Below, one piece after another: positions 18,132-36,053 of a stretch of DNA of 37,151 nt. The stretch lies in the NCBI GenBank assembly GCA_011388275.1, contig DSAB01000071.1, positions 1-37,151 of the forward strand. The letters are read 5' to 3'. The translations under genes and the position numbers were made by a program. This stretch comes from a bacterium. GTDB lineage: Bacteria > Zhuqueibacterota > QNDG01 > DSAB01. The notes beneath the pieces are model-generated. The model worked only from the letters and a program-made list of their open reading frames with translations, ran no database searches and was not told the origin of the DNA. How positions within the stretch are numbered: position 1 is the first letter of the stretch; each line of letters begins with the position of its first letter.

Positions 18132-18137
18132 TTGAGT

Positions 18138-18908
18138 ATGACAGATAAACGAAAGAAATCTTCTAAAAAAAAGGATGACACCAGGGAGATGCCTTTTCTG
18201 GATCATCTGGAAGAATTCCGTTGGCGTGTTCTCAAATCGCTGGCTGCTGTCGTACTCTTCACTGTGGGATCCTTTTCGTTTTCCGGTTTCATGCTTCGGA
18301 TTTTGACTATACCTAATACCACATTGGAGAAACCGGCCAGGCTGATATTCCTGAAACCCACCGGCATGCTGATGGTCAGAATGGAAATTGCTTTGGCTGT
18401 GGGTATTATCTGCGCAATACCCGTTCTGTTTTATCAAGGCTGGCAATTTATCGCACCCGGTCTTTTGCCCCGGGAAAGAAAGTATTTTGTTCCTGCCCTG
18501 CTCCTTACCACACTGTGCTTTTTAATCGGCACCGGTTTTGCGTATTTTATTCTCATACCAACGGTTCTGCCCTTTCTGTTCAGTATGGGAACGGATACAA
18601 TCGAACCTACAATCAATATCACGGAATACATGAGTTTCGTTCTTCGTCTGATCCTTATTTCCGGACTGATCTTTGAAATGCCGATACTCGCTTTCTTCCT
18701 CTCTCGAACCGGAATTGTCAATCCCGCCATCTTGCGACGATACAGAAGATACGGCCTCGTTCTGGTCTTTATTTTTTCCGCACTGGTAACGCCTCCAGAT
18801 CCGATCAGCCAACTGCTCATGGCTTTTCCGCTTATCTTTCTTTACGAAATCAGTATTTGGGTTTCCGTGCTTGGTTATCGAAAGAAGAAAAAGCGAGAAT
18901 CGGAATAA
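18138..18908 (+). CDS. tatC: Sec-independent protein translocase TatC
   Basis: 256 aa from the ATG at 18138; a TTG at 18132 is in frame. It is the substrate-receptor subunit of the twin-arginine translocase. A basic N-terminus precedes MPFLDHLEEFRWRV, the family's conserved N-terminal motif. About six helices follow, with the conserved PGL segment (FIAPGLLPRERKY) and SALVTPPDPISQL. It sits at the end of the rnf operon, 6 nt after rnfA. The partner TatA-type genes are at 28619-29098. Confidence 0.96.
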   Translation: MTDKRKKSSKKKDDTREMPFLDHLEEFRWRVLKSLAAVVLFTVGSFSFSGFMLRILTIPNTTLEKPARLIFLKPTGMLMVRMEIALAVGIICAIPVLFYQGWQFIAPGLLPRERKYFVPALLLTTLCFLIGTGFAYFILIPTVLPFLFSMGTDTIEPTINITEYMSFVLRLILISGLIFEMPILAFFLSRTGIVNPAILRRYRRYGLVLVFIFSALVTPPDPISQLLMAFPLIFLYEISIWVSVLGYRKKKKRESE

Positions 18909-21652: not shown

Positions 21653-21721
21653 CCTTTGGCAATAAATTTGCTGGAAAAGGGTTGCCACTTTTCAATTGAA
21701 CGCTTTCAGGGGGTAATCAGC

Positions 21722-22816
21722 ATGAAAAGAAAGGTTTTTTCAGTATTGTTTCTTGGCGGGCTGATGGTTTCATCGGTTTACGCCGATGTGTTGGTTGGTT
21801 TCAAAGTCAGTAATAATCTGTGGAAAGATCACTGGATAATTACACCGGCAATGGAAATCACTTTCGGCGGAAAATGGTTCATGATCGAAGGCGATGGAAC
21901 CTACGGAATTCATGAAATAACCAAACTGGAAAGAGGATACGCTTACCAGCTTTCTTATACCCTGACACCCATGTTTCGCGTTCCCATTGTCGGACCTTTT
22001 TACGGAGCCCTGGGATATGGAGTCAATTATACATATCGGCGGGAAGAGCTGCTTGCCGATGACGGCAAGTATCTTCTGGCATCGGAAGAATTGATCCGCG
22101 GGCAGGCCCAGGGATTCCTCGGTGCGGCCTTCCCGCTTACCCAAAACATGAAAATCTACGCGCACGGAGGTGCTTCTTATATAGATAAAAGCAATTTAAG
22201 CATTTTTGGAACAGTCGGGCTCAATCTTCGTTGGCCCCTTCCCTACTACCCGTCCGAATTCGCTCATTCAGGGCATTCTTCATCGGCCAATCACATTTCT
22301 CCTGAAGTAATTGACATCATTCTGCAAGCTCCACCCGAATATCGCCCCAGACAACGAGAAAGAATTCGTCTGGCCATTATCGGATCCGATGATCCGATTG
22401 TATTCGATTTCATCTCCAGTTTTCAGACCTCTCTTTTGGAAGAGGGAATCAAGGCCTATAATTGGAACAAGATCAATTTACCGGTTGATGCATACTACCG
22501 ACAAACGAACCTGAACACCATTCCTGCGGATTCACTGTCTTCTGTTTCGAACCGGAACCGCCACCTTTCCATCGCTTTGGAAGGCGCAAAACTTTTCGAT
22601 CTTGACGGATTGATCGATTTTCAGCTCAAGTATGAAAACAAGAAGAATCGATCCGTTCCGGCACGAATCAGCAATGCCATTATTCGTCTGATCAATCCTC
22701 AAACAGGAGAAATATTATGGGCCACCGAATATCGCGGCGGAGATCAGGAATATGATCACAGCAAAAAGATGCTCACCCAGTCATTGATCAAAGCCGTTCG
22801 GCAATGGTACAAGTAA
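21722..22816 (+). CDS. Outer-membrane barrel fused to a CsgG/LpoB-like domain
   Basis: 364 aa. The ATG at 21722 has AGGGGG upstream and a signal peptide ending VSSVYAD. About residues 20-180 look like a small outer-membrane barrel (EGDGTYGIHEITKL, FYGALGYGVNYTYRREEL, FGTVGLNLRWPLPYY). From about 200 the pattern changes to an alpha/beta domain (RIRLAIIGSDDPIVFDFISS, SIALEGAKLFDLDGLIDFQL, ARISNAIIRLINPQTGEILW). This resembles CsgG/LpoB/FlgO-type periplasmic domains, which end with the same x-G-E-I-x-W pattern. The domain call is by pattern. It converges on the metal-transport operon with a 25-bp gap. Confidence 0.65.
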   Translation: MKRKVFSVLFLGGLMVSSVYADVLVGFKVSNNLWKDHWIITPAMEITFGGKWFMIEGDGTYGIHEITKLERGYAYQLSYTLTPMFRVPIVGPFYGALGYGVNYTYRREELLADDGKYLLASEELIRGQAQGFLGAAFPLTQNMKIYAHGGASYIDKSNLSIFGTVGLNLRWPLPYYPSEFAHSGHSSSANHISPEVIDIILQAPPEYRPRQRERIRLAIIGSDDPIVFDFISSFQTSLLEEGIKAYNWNKINLPVDAYYRQTNLNTIPADSLSSVSNRNRHLSIALEGAKLFDLDGLIDFQLKYENKKNRSVPARISNAIIRLINPQTGEILWATEYRGGDQEYDHSKKMLTQSLIKAVRQWYK

Positions 22817-22841: not shown

Positions 22842-23672
22842 TTATCCTGCCTTTTTGTTTGATTTGCATCTGCTTCGTAGCCCGGCCGAGATAACGAGAA
22901 TGATAACAAGCACGCTGACCATCGAAGGTCCTGCCGAAAAATCCATGCCAAAAGAGAGTGCAAGACCGGCCAGAATCGATGCTGCTCCGACCACCCATGC
23001 AATTACGATACGGCGAAACCACTGATCAGCGAACAAGGCGGCAAAAGTCGCTGGAATTACAATCAATGAAAAGATCAGCAGAACTCCGGCAACCGGGACT
23101 GTGAAAGTAATGACCAGACCTATCATACCATAAAATAGAAAATCCCAAAACCAGTGAACCTCTCCGTTTCGTTCTCTGCCGGACTGTGATAGCTGACGGA
23201 ATCGATGTCGAAAAACATAATACATGATACCCGCTGCCGAATAAACAACCCCTATAATCATGATATCTTTCCACTGAACCCATAGAATTCTGCCGATCAG
23301 AATATTTTCAAGATGCGTATCGGCTCCGGTTTCCATCCCCAACAAGAAGAGCATCAAGGCTGCAGCCAGGGCATAGATGACACCGATAAGAGCCTCCTGG
23401 GGAATCTGGGTTATTCGCCGGACTGCTATGGCAAAAAACAGGGATGCCAGAATCGAGCAGCTAAAGGCAAACGCATAGGAGATCCAGGTCTCTTCATGAA
23501 AACCGAACAGAATCAGTGCCAGAGCAGACCCCACAGCCGCGATCTGGGCCATGGCAATATCGATAAAGATGATTTTCCTCTCGAGTATATGGATTCCCAA
23601 ATATCCGAAAATCAAGATCATGGACAAGCATGCGATCAACGGTGGAAATAAAAAATGAATGATTTCGAACAT
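22842..23672 (-). CDS. Metal ABC transporter permease (ABC-3 family), second subunit
   Basis: 276 aa with about eight helices. ABC-3 permeases carry zinc or manganese across the inner membrane. Family signatures are ERKIIFIDIAMAQIAAVGSA near the N-terminus, QEALIGVIYALAAALMLFLL in the middle and VPVAGVLLIFSLIVIPATFA near the C-terminus. AAGGAG precedes the ATG. It lies 18 nt after the first permease, so the channel is probably a heterodimer. The predicted product ends in a short basic tail. Confidence 0.88.
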   Translation of the reverse strand: MFEIIHFLFPPLIACLSMILIFGYLGIHILERKIIFIDIAMAQIAAVGSALALILFGFHEETWISYAFAFSCSILASLFFAIAVRRITQIPQEALIGVIYALAAALMLFLLGMETGADTHLENILIGRILWVQWKDIMIIGVVYSAAGIMYYVFRHRFRQLSQSGRERNGEVHWFWDFLFYGMIGLVITFTVPVAGVLLIFSLIVIPATFAALFADQWFRRIVIAWVVGAASILAGLALSFGMDFSAGPSMVSVLVIILVISAGLRSRCKSNKKAG

Positions 23673-23690
23673 AGTTTTCTCCTTGAACGA

Positions 23691-24509
23691 TTACCCGGGG
23701 ACGTTAACCGGAGAGAACATTTTCAAAAATACTGCCGCTAAAAATACGATTCCAAGGCTGATCACCAGAGTCGGTCCGTAGGGAAGATGAAAAAAATAGG
23801 ACGTAAAAAGACCCAGCAGAGACGTGATAAATCCCACCAACCATCCAATCTTCAATGCTTTCCCCCACTCCCTGGTAAAAAGTGTGGCAACAGCGGCAGG
23901 AATCATCAGAAATCCATAAGCCAAAAGCACTCCGGCAATAGGCACAATCAGCACCGTGATAATTCCAAGGGAGATGAAAAACAAAAGGTCCCAGGCTTTC
24001 TCGCGGGTGACGGTTCCCGGATTTTCCGTAATTTGTATGAACTGATGCCTAAACCGGATATGAATCCAGGCCAGCAAAGCGTAAACAACAACCGTCACCC
24101 AGACCAGTGTCCAGTTGACCCACAGAAGGCATCCGGCCAGCGCCTGAGTAATATACGCTCCACCGCCGGGCACCTTATCGACCACCAGGAATGATCCGGT
24201 TAACGCCAAAGCATAAAGAATACCGATGATCGCTTCATGTGGTATTCTCTGGTTGACAGGCCGGACATAAGCCAGAACAACAGATCCGATCAGTACAGCG
24301 ATCATCGATACCAGATAGGAAAAAATACTCCCTCCATTGATTCCCATCGCGATTCCAACAATAATTCCCATTCCGGCCAGCTGATCCAGGGCCAGATCGG
24401 AAAATACGATACGCCTTCGAATCACATGCAGGCCCAGGTATGTATGTACCGAAGTCACCACGAATAAAAGAACAATTTGAATCGATAAAAAATTGAATGT
24501 CTGCCACAT
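23691..24509 (-). CDS. Metal ABC transporter permease (ABC-3 family), first subunit
   Basis: 272 aa from the ATG at 24509, chosen because GGAGG lies 8 nt upstream; a TTG at 24545 and an ATG at 24524 are also in frame. About eight to nine helices. RRRIVFSDLALDQLAGMG, PHEAIIGILYALALTGSF and VPIAGVLLAYGFLMIPAAVA are ABC-3 signatures matching its neighbour, so the two arose by duplication. No nucleotide-binding subunit is adjacent. Confidence 0.88.
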   Translation of the reverse strand: MWQTFNFLSIQIVLLFVVTSVHTYLGLHVIRRRIVFSDLALDQLAGMGIIVGIAMGINGGSIFSYLVSMIAVLIGSVVLAYVRPVNQRIPHEAIIGILYALALTGSFLVVDKVPGGGAYITQALAGCLLWVNWTLVWVTVVVYALLAWIHIRFRHQFIQITENPGTVTREKAWDLLFFISLGIITVLIVPIAGVLLAYGFLMIPAAVATLFTREWGKALKIGWLVGFITSLLGLFTSYFFHLPYGPTLVISLGIVFLAAVFLKMFSPVNVPG

Positions 24510-24545
24510 CGCAAATGCCTCCATGAATCCTTTTTTAATGCACAA

Positions 24546-25604
24546 TCAGGAATTTGACGATGATTCTCGAGAGCCGGAAACAGCCTGAAGAATTTGTTCG
24601 ATCCAGTAATCCACCAATGCAAAATTATCGGTGATTTCGGGAATGGCTCCAACAGAAAGGGGAAGAAAAAGTGCCTGAATTCCCGTCTTTTGTGCAATCG
24701 TCATGGGGCTTCGTTTTTCGAAATAGCTGGCGACAAGCATCACCTTTACACCCCTGTCTTTGATGAGCTGAATGGTGTTTTCCACATGTTTGGGTGTCGG
24801 AGGGATACCGGGTTTTGATTCGATATAACCCAGTATATGGATGCCGAAATCACGGGCAAAGTAGGCCCAGTTCTTGTGATAGGCCATCATCTCTTTACTC
24901 CGAAAAGGCAGGGCTTTTTTCAGCCATCCGCCCAGAAGGTCCAAAAGCAGCCCGTCTTGATATTCCTGATTCATGAACTCCATGAACCGTCCAGCAAGAA
25001 TCAGGTCCGTGAGGGCGTCACCTCCGAAGAGGTTTACCAGCTCATCGCCAAATAAAGCCCTGTCTGTTCGATCACAAAAGTCGGTCTTTCGTTTAACGTA
25101 TTCTTCCGCGTTTTCAGGATCCACTTTCTGCAGCCCGATAGAAATATTTTCCGCGATGACTTTCCAGTTGACCGGGCTGGTGTGGATATGCGGATTACCG
25201 TACATATGAATATCTCCTTCGGAACGGCTGATCGAAGTGACAGGTTTCTCCAACAGTTCGATACCGTGATAGACCGCAACATACCCCACGGCTCCATCCA
25301 TGATTTTCCTGTTTCTGGCTTTGTCCTGTAGTGTGGTTGTCCAAACTTCCAGATCGAGACCAGTCGTAATAAAAAGATCCGCATCCTTAAGTTTCAGTGC
25401 CAGCGAGGGTTTTGGAGGAACAAAATGAGGATCCTGGTCGCCATGTGAAAGATACTCGACACGTACACGGTCGCCTCCGATGGCTTTGGCGATGCTGGCA
25501 TAATCGGAGAAAGTCGTTATTACCTGAACCGTTCGATGATCGGCGTATGCTGAAAAAAGCATGAATAAAGTCAGAGTAAAAGCAGCAAATAGATGGCGTT
25601 TCAT
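24546..25604 (-). CDS. Zinc/manganese-type ABC substrate-binding protein (cluster A-I)
   Basis: 352 aa. The ATG at 25604 follows GGAGGA and starts a signal peptide (MKRHLFAAFTLTLFMLFSAYA). It belongs to the ZnuA/PsaA/TroA group. Candidate metal ligands are His in DQDPHFVPPKPS, His in GNPHIHTSPVNW, His in MAYHKNWAYFARDF and an acidic residue late in the chain. The long His/acidic loop of ZnuA is absent, so the metal may be zinc or manganese. It is 16 nt after the barrel gene and just before the permeases. Confidence 0.85.
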   Translation of the reverse strand: MKRHLFAAFTLTLFMLFSAYADHRTVQVITTFSDYASIAKAIGGDRVRVEYLSHGDQDPHFVPPKPSLALKLKDADLFITTGLDLEVWTTTLQDKARNRKIMDGAVGYVAVYHGIELLEKPVTSISRSEGDIHMYGNPHIHTSPVNWKVIAENISIGLQKVDPENAEEYVKRKTDFCDRTDRALFGDELVNLFGGDALTDLILAGRFMEFMNQEYQDGLLLDLLGGWLKKALPFRSKEMMAYHKNWAYFARDFGIHILGYIESKPGIPPTPKHVENTIQLIKDRGVKVMLVASYFEKRSPMTIAQKTGIQALFLPLSVGAIPEITDNFALVDYWIEQILQAVSGSRESSSNS

Positions 25605-25620
25605 TGACGATCCTCCTGTA

Positions 25621-26934
25621 TCAATAGGATTCATGTTTGTGAGGTCCCATGGACCATACAGTCTGAAGAAAGAGGGAGTGATCATGATCCGTCCAGTTTC
25701 GCCGAGTGTGGCTGAACTGCAGTCGAAGCATGACGAATTCACTCTGCCAAAAATCAATATAAGGAGTCAAATCCCACTCTGTACACATCCTGTCAAATGG
25801 AAGTTCGGAATATCCGGTCCGGATTCCAAGCCAGAATCTCCTGCCGCTTTTGGCAGACAAATAGGCGTAACTTCCGAAACGTTTTCGCGTTCCATGGTTG
25901 GTATCACAAAAACTCCAGAAATATTCCTGCCGGAATTCTATGGTTTTGTAATGGGATTCACCCGCCGGGGTCCATTTGACTGTGAAATCCGCACCCAGAA
26001 TTGTATTTTTCAACCGTCCCAGACGATGAAAACCGTGCGCTCCGGAAAAACCGATCTCCAAATAGGTATTTCTGTTAAGATCATAATAATTCTTAAAATG
26101 CAGAACCGTGATTACATTGCGCGGATCTTCGTCAAATGATATTCCGTCGCCTCCGGACACGGCCTCAATATCCAGCTCATTCACATGTGCCCAGAGACCT
26201 CTCATCAGAATATTGGCCGACAGCCCTACCCCGCCGAAGTTTTCCAAACCGAAAAGATGTACCAGAGCCCTTGGGCGATCCGCCTGGGGTAGTCCATGGT
26301 CATGCCAGCGGTTCAACAGACCGAACTGTGTGTTAAAGTATCCCAACTTCAGGTTAATACCACCGGGAAGATTCAACCACTCCAGATATGCCTCGCCGAT
26401 CATAGCACTGAGCGGATCGTCACCGTGTGCCGGAATGCCCAGAAAGAATTTTCCTCTGGTGTAGGGGTCCAGAGGCGCGATGATATGAAACTCCGCTTCC
26501 CGCAGCGCGAACCGGTTTCTTCCCTCGGTGCGGATGCCCGGTTCTACAATATTCCGGTCTTTCGATGAACTCAAGCTGCCCATAAAATCACCGGTCAAAC
26601 TGATATTGGGGTTCAGTGCCTGCATTTGGCGTTCTCCACCCCGGAATACTTTGGTCACAGCGGATCTTTCCTCTTTCTTTTGCTGTGACAGGTTTTGGGC
26701 CATGCCCATCAGCTTTTTCAACTCCTCTTCATGTTTCTGTTTATTCAGCATATTTTCAAGGTTTTCGATTCTTTGATTCATTCGAGAAATTGCCTGTTTC
26801 AATATTCGTAACGAATCCGGTTCTTCGGTTTTCTGAAAATGATTTAAGCGATTTCCCGATTCAGACGGCAAAGTCCGTGCTCCGGTCTGAACCGATAAAA
26901 TGATAAACAGGACATTCCACAAGATCAATCTCAT
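25621..26934 (-). CDS. Coiled-coil outer-membrane beta-barrel of the metal-uptake operon
   Basis: 437 aa from the ATG at 26934, which has GAGGAG upstream. A signal peptide is followed by a coiled coil at about 40-85 (SRMNQRIENLENMLNKQKHE) and then a barrel of about 16 strands. The strand REAEFHIIAPLDPYTRGKFF and the segment EWLNLPGGINLKLGYFNTQF are like phosphate-selective or zinc-regulated porins with N-terminal coiled coils. Short His-bearing segments occur (NRWHDHGLPQ, HDHSLF, GPHKHESY at the C-terminus). The likely role is passage of metal across the outer membrane for the ABC system, inferred from the operon. Confidence 0.75.
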   Translation of the reverse strand: MRLILWNVLFIILSVQTGARTLPSESGNRLNHFQKTEEPDSLRILKQAISRMNQRIENLENMLNKQKHEEELKKLMGMAQNLSQQKKEERSAVTKVFRGGERQMQALNPNISLTGDFMGSLSSSKDRNIVEPGIRTEGRNRFALREAEFHIIAPLDPYTRGKFFLGIPAHGDDPLSAMIGEAYLEWLNLPGGINLKLGYFNTQFGLLNRWHDHGLPQADRPRALVHLFGLENFGGVGLSANILMRGLWAHVNELDIEAVSGGDGISFDEDPRNVITVLHFKNYYDLNRNTYLEIGFSGAHGFHRLGRLKNTILGADFTVKWTPAGESHYKTIEFRQEYFWSFCDTNHGTRKRFGSYAYLSAKSGRRFWLGIRTGYSELPFDRMCTEWDLTPYIDFWQSEFVMLRLQFSHTRRNWTDHDHSLFLQTVWSMGPHKHESY

Positions 26935-26993
26935 GGTGTACTCCTCTTTTTGAGATATTTTTTTCAATCAATGATGTTGAATGTTCGATTCAG

Positions 26994-27299
26994 TCAGGAG
27001 AATGTCGAGAATGGGGGCGCTCGTGTTTGAGCGGTTGAAGACACATCTGAAAAATAGACAGAATTTTTGTCCGATGTCCTGAATCGGGAAAATCGGATTT
27101 GCTGATTATGGATGGTTTCCAGAATAACGCACTGTATGGGGTCGTAGTCCTGGGCCTGAGCTTCCCATTGACACGCCGAGCAATTGTCATGAAACCGGCC
27201 GTCGTTTTCATGATTATGGCCGTCGAGCAGTATCAGACACGATGTAAAAAAGTAGACTGCAAGAAATACAACACCCAATATCTTTCTGTATGATTTCAT
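26994..27299 (-). CDS. Small exported or membrane-anchored His/Cys protein, putative metal binding
   Basis: 101 aa from the ATG at 27299. A long hydrophobic N-terminal segment (LGVVFLAVYFFTSCLILL) is followed by DGHNHENDGRFHDNCSACQW. This His-rich stretch ending in CxxC is like DUF2946-type small proteins found beside metal transporters. The rest is polar and unstructured in appearance. First gene of the metal operon; the next gene starts 59 nt on. It could be a periplasmic metal chaperone or sensor. Start Shine-Dalgarno is weak, so the start is less certain than the protein. Confidence 0.6.
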   Translation of the reverse strand: MKSYRKILGVVFLAVYFFTSCLILLDGHNHENDGRFHDNCSACQWEAQAQDYDPIQCVILETIHNQQIRFSRFRTSDKNSVYFSDVSSTAQTRAPPFSTFS

Positions 27300-28618: not shown

Positions 28619-28828
28619 TTATTTCTTTTTTTTCCCTGAGGTTTTTTCTTCCTCCTCACCCTCATCCAATTCTTTGATCTCGTCATTAACATTTTTAAGA
28701 CCATCCTTGAATTCGCGAATACCCTTTCCCAAACCCCGGGCCAGTTCGGGAATTCGTTTGGCTCCGAAAAGCAGCAACACTACGAAAAGAATGATCAGCA
28801 GTTCACCGTGACCTGGCATGGATATCAT
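28619..28828 (-). CDS. tatA: Twin-arginine translocase TatA-type subunit
   Basis: 69 aa. A single N-terminal helix ([20 protein letters not shown]) contains the conserved FG hinge. An amphipathic helix ([16 protein letters not shown]) and a Lys/Glu-rich tail follow. This is the more TatA-like of the two tandem copies. GGAGGGAA precedes the ATG. Confidence 0.93.
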
Positions 28829-28903
28829 GTGCTGTTCCCTCCTCTTATCATTTTCAAAGGGCGGATCCTTTACTCTTCAGAGAAAGCCCGCCATTCCTGG
28901 AAC

Positions 28904-29098
28904 TCATCCCAGATACCTGGATTCATCATCGTCATCCATGAACCGATTGATTTCATCCTTCACGTCTCGTGTTGCGTTCTGGAAACGGCTCACAGCCTTT
29001 CCAAACTTTTTGGCCAGAGACGGTAATTCTCTGCTCCCGAATAAAAGTAAGAAAACCAGAAGGATGAGAAGCAGTTCATAGGTCCCGATGGATCCCAT
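28904..29098 (-). CDS. Second TatA/TatB-type subunit
   Basis: 64 aa. The transmembrane helix ELLLILLVFLLLFGSRELPS also has the FG hinge, followed by LAKKFGKAVSRFQNATRD. It differs clearly from the neighbouring copy, with an acidic DDDD stretch near its end, and may play a TatB-like role. The ATG is 2 nt after pssA and follows GAGG. Confidence 0.92.
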   Translation of the reverse strand: MGSIGTYELLLILLVFLLLFGSRELPSLAKKFGKAVSRFQNATRDVKDEINRFMDDDDESRYLG

Positions 29099-35255: not shown

Positions 35256-36053
35256 TCAAACCCATGCCAGGATCATGATTCCGGAAACCGCCACAACACC
35301 CAGTGCAGCCCCATCCACCCACCGAAACCGAAGAGCCTGGTAGCTGGTTCGATTTTCTCCTCCCCGATAGCACCGGGCTTCCATGGCCAGAGCCAGATCG
35401 TTGGCTCGCCTGAAAGTCGAGACAAAAAGCGGAATGATCAACGGGATCAAACCCTTTATTCTTTGAACCGGTGACCCGTTTATCCGGCTTCCTCTTGAAA
35501 TCTGAGCCTTTCGAATCCGGTCCGTCTCCTCCATCAATGTCGGTATGAAACGCATGGAAATGGACATCATCATCGCGATTTCATGAGCCGGCAGACCCAG
35601 TCTCGTCAAAGGCTTCAGGAAACGTTCGATGGCGTCCGTTAAAGCCATGGGAGATGTTGTCAGCGTGATCAAGGCTGCGGACAGAATTAAAACCACTATA
35701 CGAAACGAATAAAACAGACCCGCATGAATTCCTTCAGTCGTAACAGCCAGGGACAGGGGAAGCCGGATCAAAATGTGTCCTTCCGTAAAAAGCGCATGTA
35801 TGATCACGGTCAGTATCAAAATCCAGAGAAAGGGCCGAATATTTCGAAAAGCCAGACCTGTGTTTAAACGAGCTGCCTGATAGAGAACAATGGTTCCCAG
35901 GGCGATAACGAGCAGAGAGGACAAACGGGGCGCCAAAAAGATCAGGGTCATTAGAATCACTCCTGCCAGAATTTTCGTGCGTGAATCAAGGCGGTGAATT
36001 ACGGAATCACGAGGCGCGAAATGACCCAATGTAATGTCGGTAAAACGTATCAA
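35256..36053 (-). CDS. ecfT: ECF-type transporter transmembrane subunit
   Basis: 265 aa with about five to six helices. It couples an S-component to the ATPases in vitamin or metal uptake. The family start ITLGHFAPRDSVIHRLDSRTK is present, as are the two coupling-helix regions AQISRGSRI and MEARCYRGG; the second is usually ARG, here ARC. The start is TTG at 36053, with no ATG in the frame upstream and no Shine-Dalgarno. Neither ATPase (EcfA) nor an S-component lies in the window. Promoter at 36125-36153. Confidence 0.92.
   Translation of the reverse strand: MIRFTDITLGHFAPRDSVIHRLDSRTKILAGVILMTLIFLAPRLSSLLVIALGTIVLYQAARLNTGLAFRNIRPFLWILILTVIIHALFTEGHILIRLPLSLAVTTEGIHAGLFYSFRIVVLILSAALITLTTSPMALTDAIERFLKPLTRLGLPAHEIAMMMSISMRFIPTLMEETDRIRKAQISRGSRINGSPVQRIKGLIPLIIPLFVSTFRRANDLALAMEARCYRGGENRTSYQALRFRWVDGAALGVVAVSGIMILAWV

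Follow-up and report, generated by a model that had tools for sequence, protein, structure and literature searches.

The ATPase is the defining component of ABC importers. Among described systems, ZnuABC, PsaBC, and TroABCD share with the locus considered here a ZnuA-type binding protein and the ABC-3 permease fold, but our locus differs in having no ATPase, a degenerate docking loop, other invariant membrane residues, and a dedicated barrel. A nearer counterpart is znuBII-znuAII-omr of Vibrio parahaemolyticus (VP_RS21420-21430), which is reported to belong to the Zur regulon, with zinc deficiency raising expression of znuBII 283-fold, znuAII 543-fold, and omr 1034-fold (PMC9817125). ZnuAII (VPA1307) helped one clinical isolate to grow when zinc was chelated, an effect that depended on two of the conserved histidines (PMC3794297). 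In a second V. parahaemolyticus strain, the role of ZnuAII was minor and seen only without ZrgA, and its loss alone had no effect on growth. Like our locus, the Vibrio cluster groups a barrel, a ZnuA homolog, and a permease, and no ATPase is listed for it. We found no comment on this missing ATPase in the available text of PMC9817125 and PMC3794297, and no description of an ATPase-less ABC-3 system in the open-access literature.

Sequence comparison was made with Vibrio campbellii (locus L067), which we equate with the V. parahaemolyticus cluster by gene order and gene names rather than by direct sequence comparison. Its barrel, binding protein, and permease matched the window proteins at 7e-14, 2e-29, and 6e-20, respectively. 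The arrangement is the same, but the Vibrio cluster has one permease where the window has two, its docking loop is deleted, and the small gene was not detected in L067. We propose, with a probability of roughly 55%, that such loci encode a widespread ATPase-independent, binding-protein-dependent importer of zinc (a divalent metal) that is built on the ABC-3 fold and served by its own plug-less porin.

The operon and its relatives

The window is the whole stretch of DNA analyzed, 37,151 nt, and corresponds to contig G000:C18 of a 2.82-Mb genome that is 96.5% complete. Its minus strand carries a five-gene run (27299-22842) that encodes a small His/Cys protein, a barrel, a ZnuA-type protein, and two ABC-3 permeases, with intergenic spacing of about 16-59 bases (Table 1). 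The first-pass annotation had described these five genes as contiguous, and their coordinates are borne out by the open reading frames and by Pfam matches, including matches of both permeases above the Pfam cut-off for PF00950. An upstream GNAT gene ends 31 bases ahead of the small-protein gene, and therefore the run, in part or as a whole, may belong to a larger transcription unit. In the operon region, promoter-like and terminator-like matches were no commoner than in shuffled sequence. The genome has two Fur-family genes, neither of them linked here to the operon.

Table 1. Coordinates of the operon genes and of the two permease loops within the window
Feature	Position	Strand	Remarks
Small exported His/Cys protein	26994..27299	-	101 aa; no Pfam/NCBIfam family over cut-off
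Barrel with N-terminal coiled coil	25621..26934	-	437 aa; no plug domain, porin-like
ZnuA-family metal-binding protein	24546..25604	-	PF01297, E=3.4e-44
ABC-3 permease A	23691..24509	-	PF00950, E=2.5e-23; alternative start 24524
ABC-3 permease B	22842..23672	-	PF00950, E=2.3e-29; PsaC/BtuC fold
Permease B loop aligned with ATPase-docking (coupling) helix	23145..23201	-	FD...A motif lost
Permease A loop aligned with ATPase-docking (coupling) helix	23991..24038	-	Shortened, degenerate

Several other features of the window were recorded. A 386-aa open reading frame (21656-22816, plus strand) is convergent with the operon and has a small barrel-like N-terminal part and no Pfam family. By eye, a membrane protein encoded close to the right edge (35256-36053, minus strand) resembles EcfT/CbiQ. 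Two genes that look like TatA and one that looks like TatC were likewise recognized by eye, apart from each other (28619-29098, minus strand, and 18132-18908, plus strand).

The absence of an ATPase, which the first-pass annotation had also reported, extends well beyond the window. No ABC ATPase reading frame was found in the 37,151 nt, and none lay within 2.2 kb in any of the 53 loci where barrel, binding protein, and permease occur together. For this survey, loci were fetched with their surroundings and every open reading frame was scored by profile for each component. In the window's phylum, 23 ABC-3 loci without the barrel carry an ATPase. The 53 loci come from that phylum, from metagenome-assembled genomes labeled Krumholzibacteriota and Bacteroidota, from Sulfurovum, and from Vibrio. 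The permease family occurs in 54 of 82 genomes of the phylum and the barrel in 36 of 59 relatives; two permeases are present in 16 loci and one in the others. In Sulfurovum mangrovi, four genes of the cluster are annotated, two of them as hypothetical. The recurrence of the order of barrel, binding protein, and permease across several phyla is more than chance, and, with no ATPase that close in any of the 53 loci, the missing ATPase is not a local accident.

ATPases elsewhere and the permease docking loop

The main alternative to an ATPase-independent importer is that the permeases form an ABC importer with a borrowed ATPase acting in trans, namely ZnuC in the window's genome and a different ABC ATPase where ZnuC is missing. 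We regard this as unlikely, although several observations speak for it. The window's genome contains a single ZnuC ortholog, and its one other ABC-3 permease belongs to a complete binding protein-ATPase-permease set (G000:C56). There, as in Vibrio species, ZnuC could act in trans, and other ABC ATPases are present in every genome. The first-pass annotation had advised a search for ZnuC elsewhere and had treated a separate, complete metal transporter as a challenge to its reading. Such a set does exist, but it does not account for the operon, which many relatives have in genomes without ZnuC. For the same reason, we rejected ZnuC in trans as a general answer and keep it as conceivable where ZnuC exists.

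The distribution of ZnuC weighs against borrowing. ZnuC orthologs were found in 32 of the 82 genomes (E at most 1e-40). At least 19 near-complete genomes (completeness at least 95%, contamination at most 5%, tallied over the result tables) have a permease of the barrel-linked type and lack both a detectable ZnuC and any further convincing ABC-3 permease; they include assemblies of 20-30 contigs that are 98-100% complete (G020, G027, and G028). In 14 of the 19, the best ABC ATPases scored at most about 125 bits versus 149-241 for full-length ZnuC, as measured with a ZnuC-like composite query of our own writing, not a natural sequence, that was later calibrated on real ZnuC (one partial ZnuC scored 120). 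None of the ATPases sampled from those 14 genomes joined the ZnuC clade, and one very long-branched row fell just outside it. ATPase matches at three cluster loci (L038, L056, and L062) were set aside as candidates, being 2.2-4.6 kb distant and outside the ZnuC clade. ZIP-family transporters were present in 14 of 15 genomes tested, which leaves room for zinc routes besides the cluster.

The permeases themselves form two classes. In our tree, ATPase-linked and barrel-linked permeases separate at a branch with 99% SH-aLRT, and the few rows labeled "other" are contig-end or truncated cases that were placed as expected. At three positions in the membrane region, all 67 barrel-linked permeases have private D, Q, and E residues, which occur in 0, 2, and 1 of the 25 ATPase-linked permeases; at two further positions, H is found in 62 and 60 of the 67. 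Permease B carries H28, D38, Q43, and E93 as its private residues. Its predicted structure (mean pLDDT 69) matches PsaC and BtuC-type permeases, which indicates that the permease fold is retained in the model. Two ATPase-linked permeases (L069:46-1654 and L070:5858-7313) have Q and H in common with the barrel-linked permeases and are possible intermediates between the two classes.

The loop at which an ATPase would dock bears on borrowing in both directions. We take the FD...A loop to be the coupling helix, based on alignment to PsaC and ZnuB and on what is generally known about type II ABC importers. In ATPase-linked permeases, the loop is constant in length and better conserved than the remainder of the protein, with an entropy of 1.55 bits versus 1.76. 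In barrel-linked permeases, conservation of the loop is far weaker than elsewhere in the protein, at 2.73 versus 1.72 bits, and at 2.42 versus 1.33 bits in the window's own group. Barrel-linked permeases also differ in the length of the loop, and those of Vibrio, Sulfurovum, and three relatives have it deleted. A motif of D/E plus A is kept in 23 of 25 ATPase-linked permeases, in 10 of 67 barrel-linked ones, and in neither window permease. A loop so unconstrained would be the expected picture of release from an ATPase, though 21 of the 67 barrel-linked permeases keep the alanine, and these partial retentions look as if some members still met one.

Binding protein, small protein, and outer membrane barrel

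The ZnuA-type protein bears on the identity of the metal. The window protein belongs to the ZnuA family (PF01297) and has its metal-ligand histidines: His61, His140, and His244 (numbering of the 353-aa copy) occur without exception in the 53 binding proteins linked to a barrel. The third of these ligands aligns with a histidine of cyanobacterial ZnuA. Within the family, a histidine at this position marks the ligand set of the zinc type, as opposed to that of the manganese type. In the Vibrio protein VPA1307, H69 and H148 keep the 79-residue spacing, and H202 is out of line with the third ligand of L067. Together with the Zur regulation of the Vibrio counterpart, the invariant histidines support the original view of the run as a metal-uptake operon, with zinc as the most likely metal, and we infer zinc specificity in this organism as well.

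The small protein has an N-terminal hydrophobic helix, DGHNHENDGRFHDNCSACQWE, and RAPP near its C-terminus. In many loci a homolog immediately precedes the barrel gene, and the protein is probably a periplasmic accessory that captures metal. For both the small protein and the barrel, weak Pfam matches below the cut-off were disregarded.

Neither the barrel nor its Vibrio homolog has a plug domain or any Pfam family over cut-off. A search with the PF07715 plug and TonB_dep_Rec profiles matched a receptor at L031, which served as positive control, and matched neither of the two barrels. The predicted structure of the window barrel consists of a signal helix, a helix at 40-98, and then about 15-16 strands, at low confidence (mean pLDDT 48); the alignments behind it were shallow, drawn only from the window and related loci, and hence the model is poor. 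Its best fold matches are porins, ScrY, OprO, and DcaP among them, and the description of the protein as a coiled-coil barrel is supported at low confidence by the model. ScrY, OprO, and DcaP are sugar or phosphate porins that likewise combine an N-terminal coiled coil with a nutrient barrel, but they share no sequence family with the window barrel. ZnuD-type TonB-dependent zinc receptors are likewise nutrient barrels of the outer membrane, from which the window barrel differs in having no plug domain. Because the barrel and its Vibrio homolog have no plug and the model resembles porins, the name "TonB-dependent receptor" for the Vibrio gene omr is doubtful, and this porin-like barrel may be mislabeled.

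The first-pass annotation had suggested an outer membrane route that does not use TonB. The plug-less barrel and its porin-like model agree with that suggestion. TonB independence of the system as a whole is not established, because about eight relatives, but not the window, have a genuine plug-bearing TonB-dependent receptor within a few kilobases of the cluster. The receptor at L031:9808-12114, like those of about seven other relatives, has both plug and CarboxypepD_reg domains.

A possible route for zinc import

For an ATPase-independent importer, we infer the direction of import, the driving force, and the step taken by each protein as follows. Metal would cross the outer membrane through the plug-less barrel, and in the periplasm both the small His/Cys protein and the protein of ZnuA type would capture it. 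The binding protein would then dock on two permease subunits, in this operon probably A paired with B, and this dimer would pass the ion inward without ATP. The driving force could be the membrane potential, tight binding of zinc in the cytoplasm, or protons, the last perhaps moving through the new acidic residues of the permeases. Favoring this importer are the 53 loci with no ATPase nearby, the ZnuC-less genomes, the clean split among permeases, the decayed docking loop, the D/Q/E signature, the retained fold, and a Vibrio counterpart that is Zur regulated and contributes to growth under zinc depletion. Against it stand the permeases that keep part of the coupling-helix motif, the genomes in which ZnuC could act in trans, and the V. 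parahaemolyticus strain whose growth was unaffected by loss of the binding protein alone. It is about an even bet that these loci represent a widespread but unrecognized class of ATP-independent metal importers that depend on a binding protein, derive from ABC-3 transporters, gave up the ATPase together with its docking site, and acquired a dedicated plug-less outer membrane porin. This history, with the small metal-capturing protein as a further gain, is the most economical one.

Analogs for parts of this scheme exist. Solitary BioY, a biotin transporter with an optional ABC module, is a published precedent (cited in PMC4820897). It resembles the proposed importer as a transporter of ABC ancestry that works without the ATPase module; it differs in its ECF S-component fold and in having no binding protein and no outer membrane part, and it is not a relative. 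TRAP transporters carry out binding-protein-dependent uptake without ATP, as the window system may also do, but they consist of DctP, DctQ, and DctM proteins, whereas the window's membrane proteins are ABC-3 permeases and not DctQ/DctM. If our reading is correct, an ABC importer can turn into a secondary or passive transporter, and a deep lineage spanning phyla has kept the permease and binding protein while losing its ATPase as well as the docking site for it. Such a lineage would offer a clean system for asking what powers such an importer. Annotated zinc ABC transporter operons, including the Zur-regulated one of Vibrio, may then be mislabeled.

A less probable alternative, one that we rank well below a borrowed ATPase, is that no transport across the inner membrane takes place. 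The permeases would provide the binding protein with a membrane anchor or a sensor, and the role of the cluster would be periplasmic metal capture, buffering, or signaling. Permeases without a motor, a His-rich small periplasmic protein, and the HEAT-like extensions of some permeases would fit such a role; the strong conservation of the permease fold and of residues in its membrane region is better suited to translocation, and the Vibrio binding protein aids growth under zinc depletion. An ordinary Znu operon in decay, with its ATPase gene lost locally or hidden by an assembly gap, has in its favor only the usual presence of an ATPase beside genes of this kind and is highly improbable, being already contradicted by open reading frames, by a clade with its own invariant residues, and by an ATPase-less layout conserved in deep relatives and in other phyla.

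Additional features were noted in other loci. Some permeases bear an extra C-terminal domain, which is HEAT-like in a 505-aa form. Three barrel-linked permeases (L059:10097-11614, L061:10384-11901, and L045:5361-6674) have this domain along with an extra predicted membrane helix; by its charge pattern, the domain may be periplasmic and could be a docking site for the binding protein. In Chlamydia, YtgCR is a permease fused to a DtxR-type regulator. We rejected a fusion of that kind for the long permeases: the 505-aa form has the HEAT-like extension, and the extension of the 437-aa form has no assignment. Finally, P-loop ATPases of the Mrp/NBP35 type lie near the cluster in L041, L073, L068, and L038, Sulfurovum included, an association that is probably coincidental.
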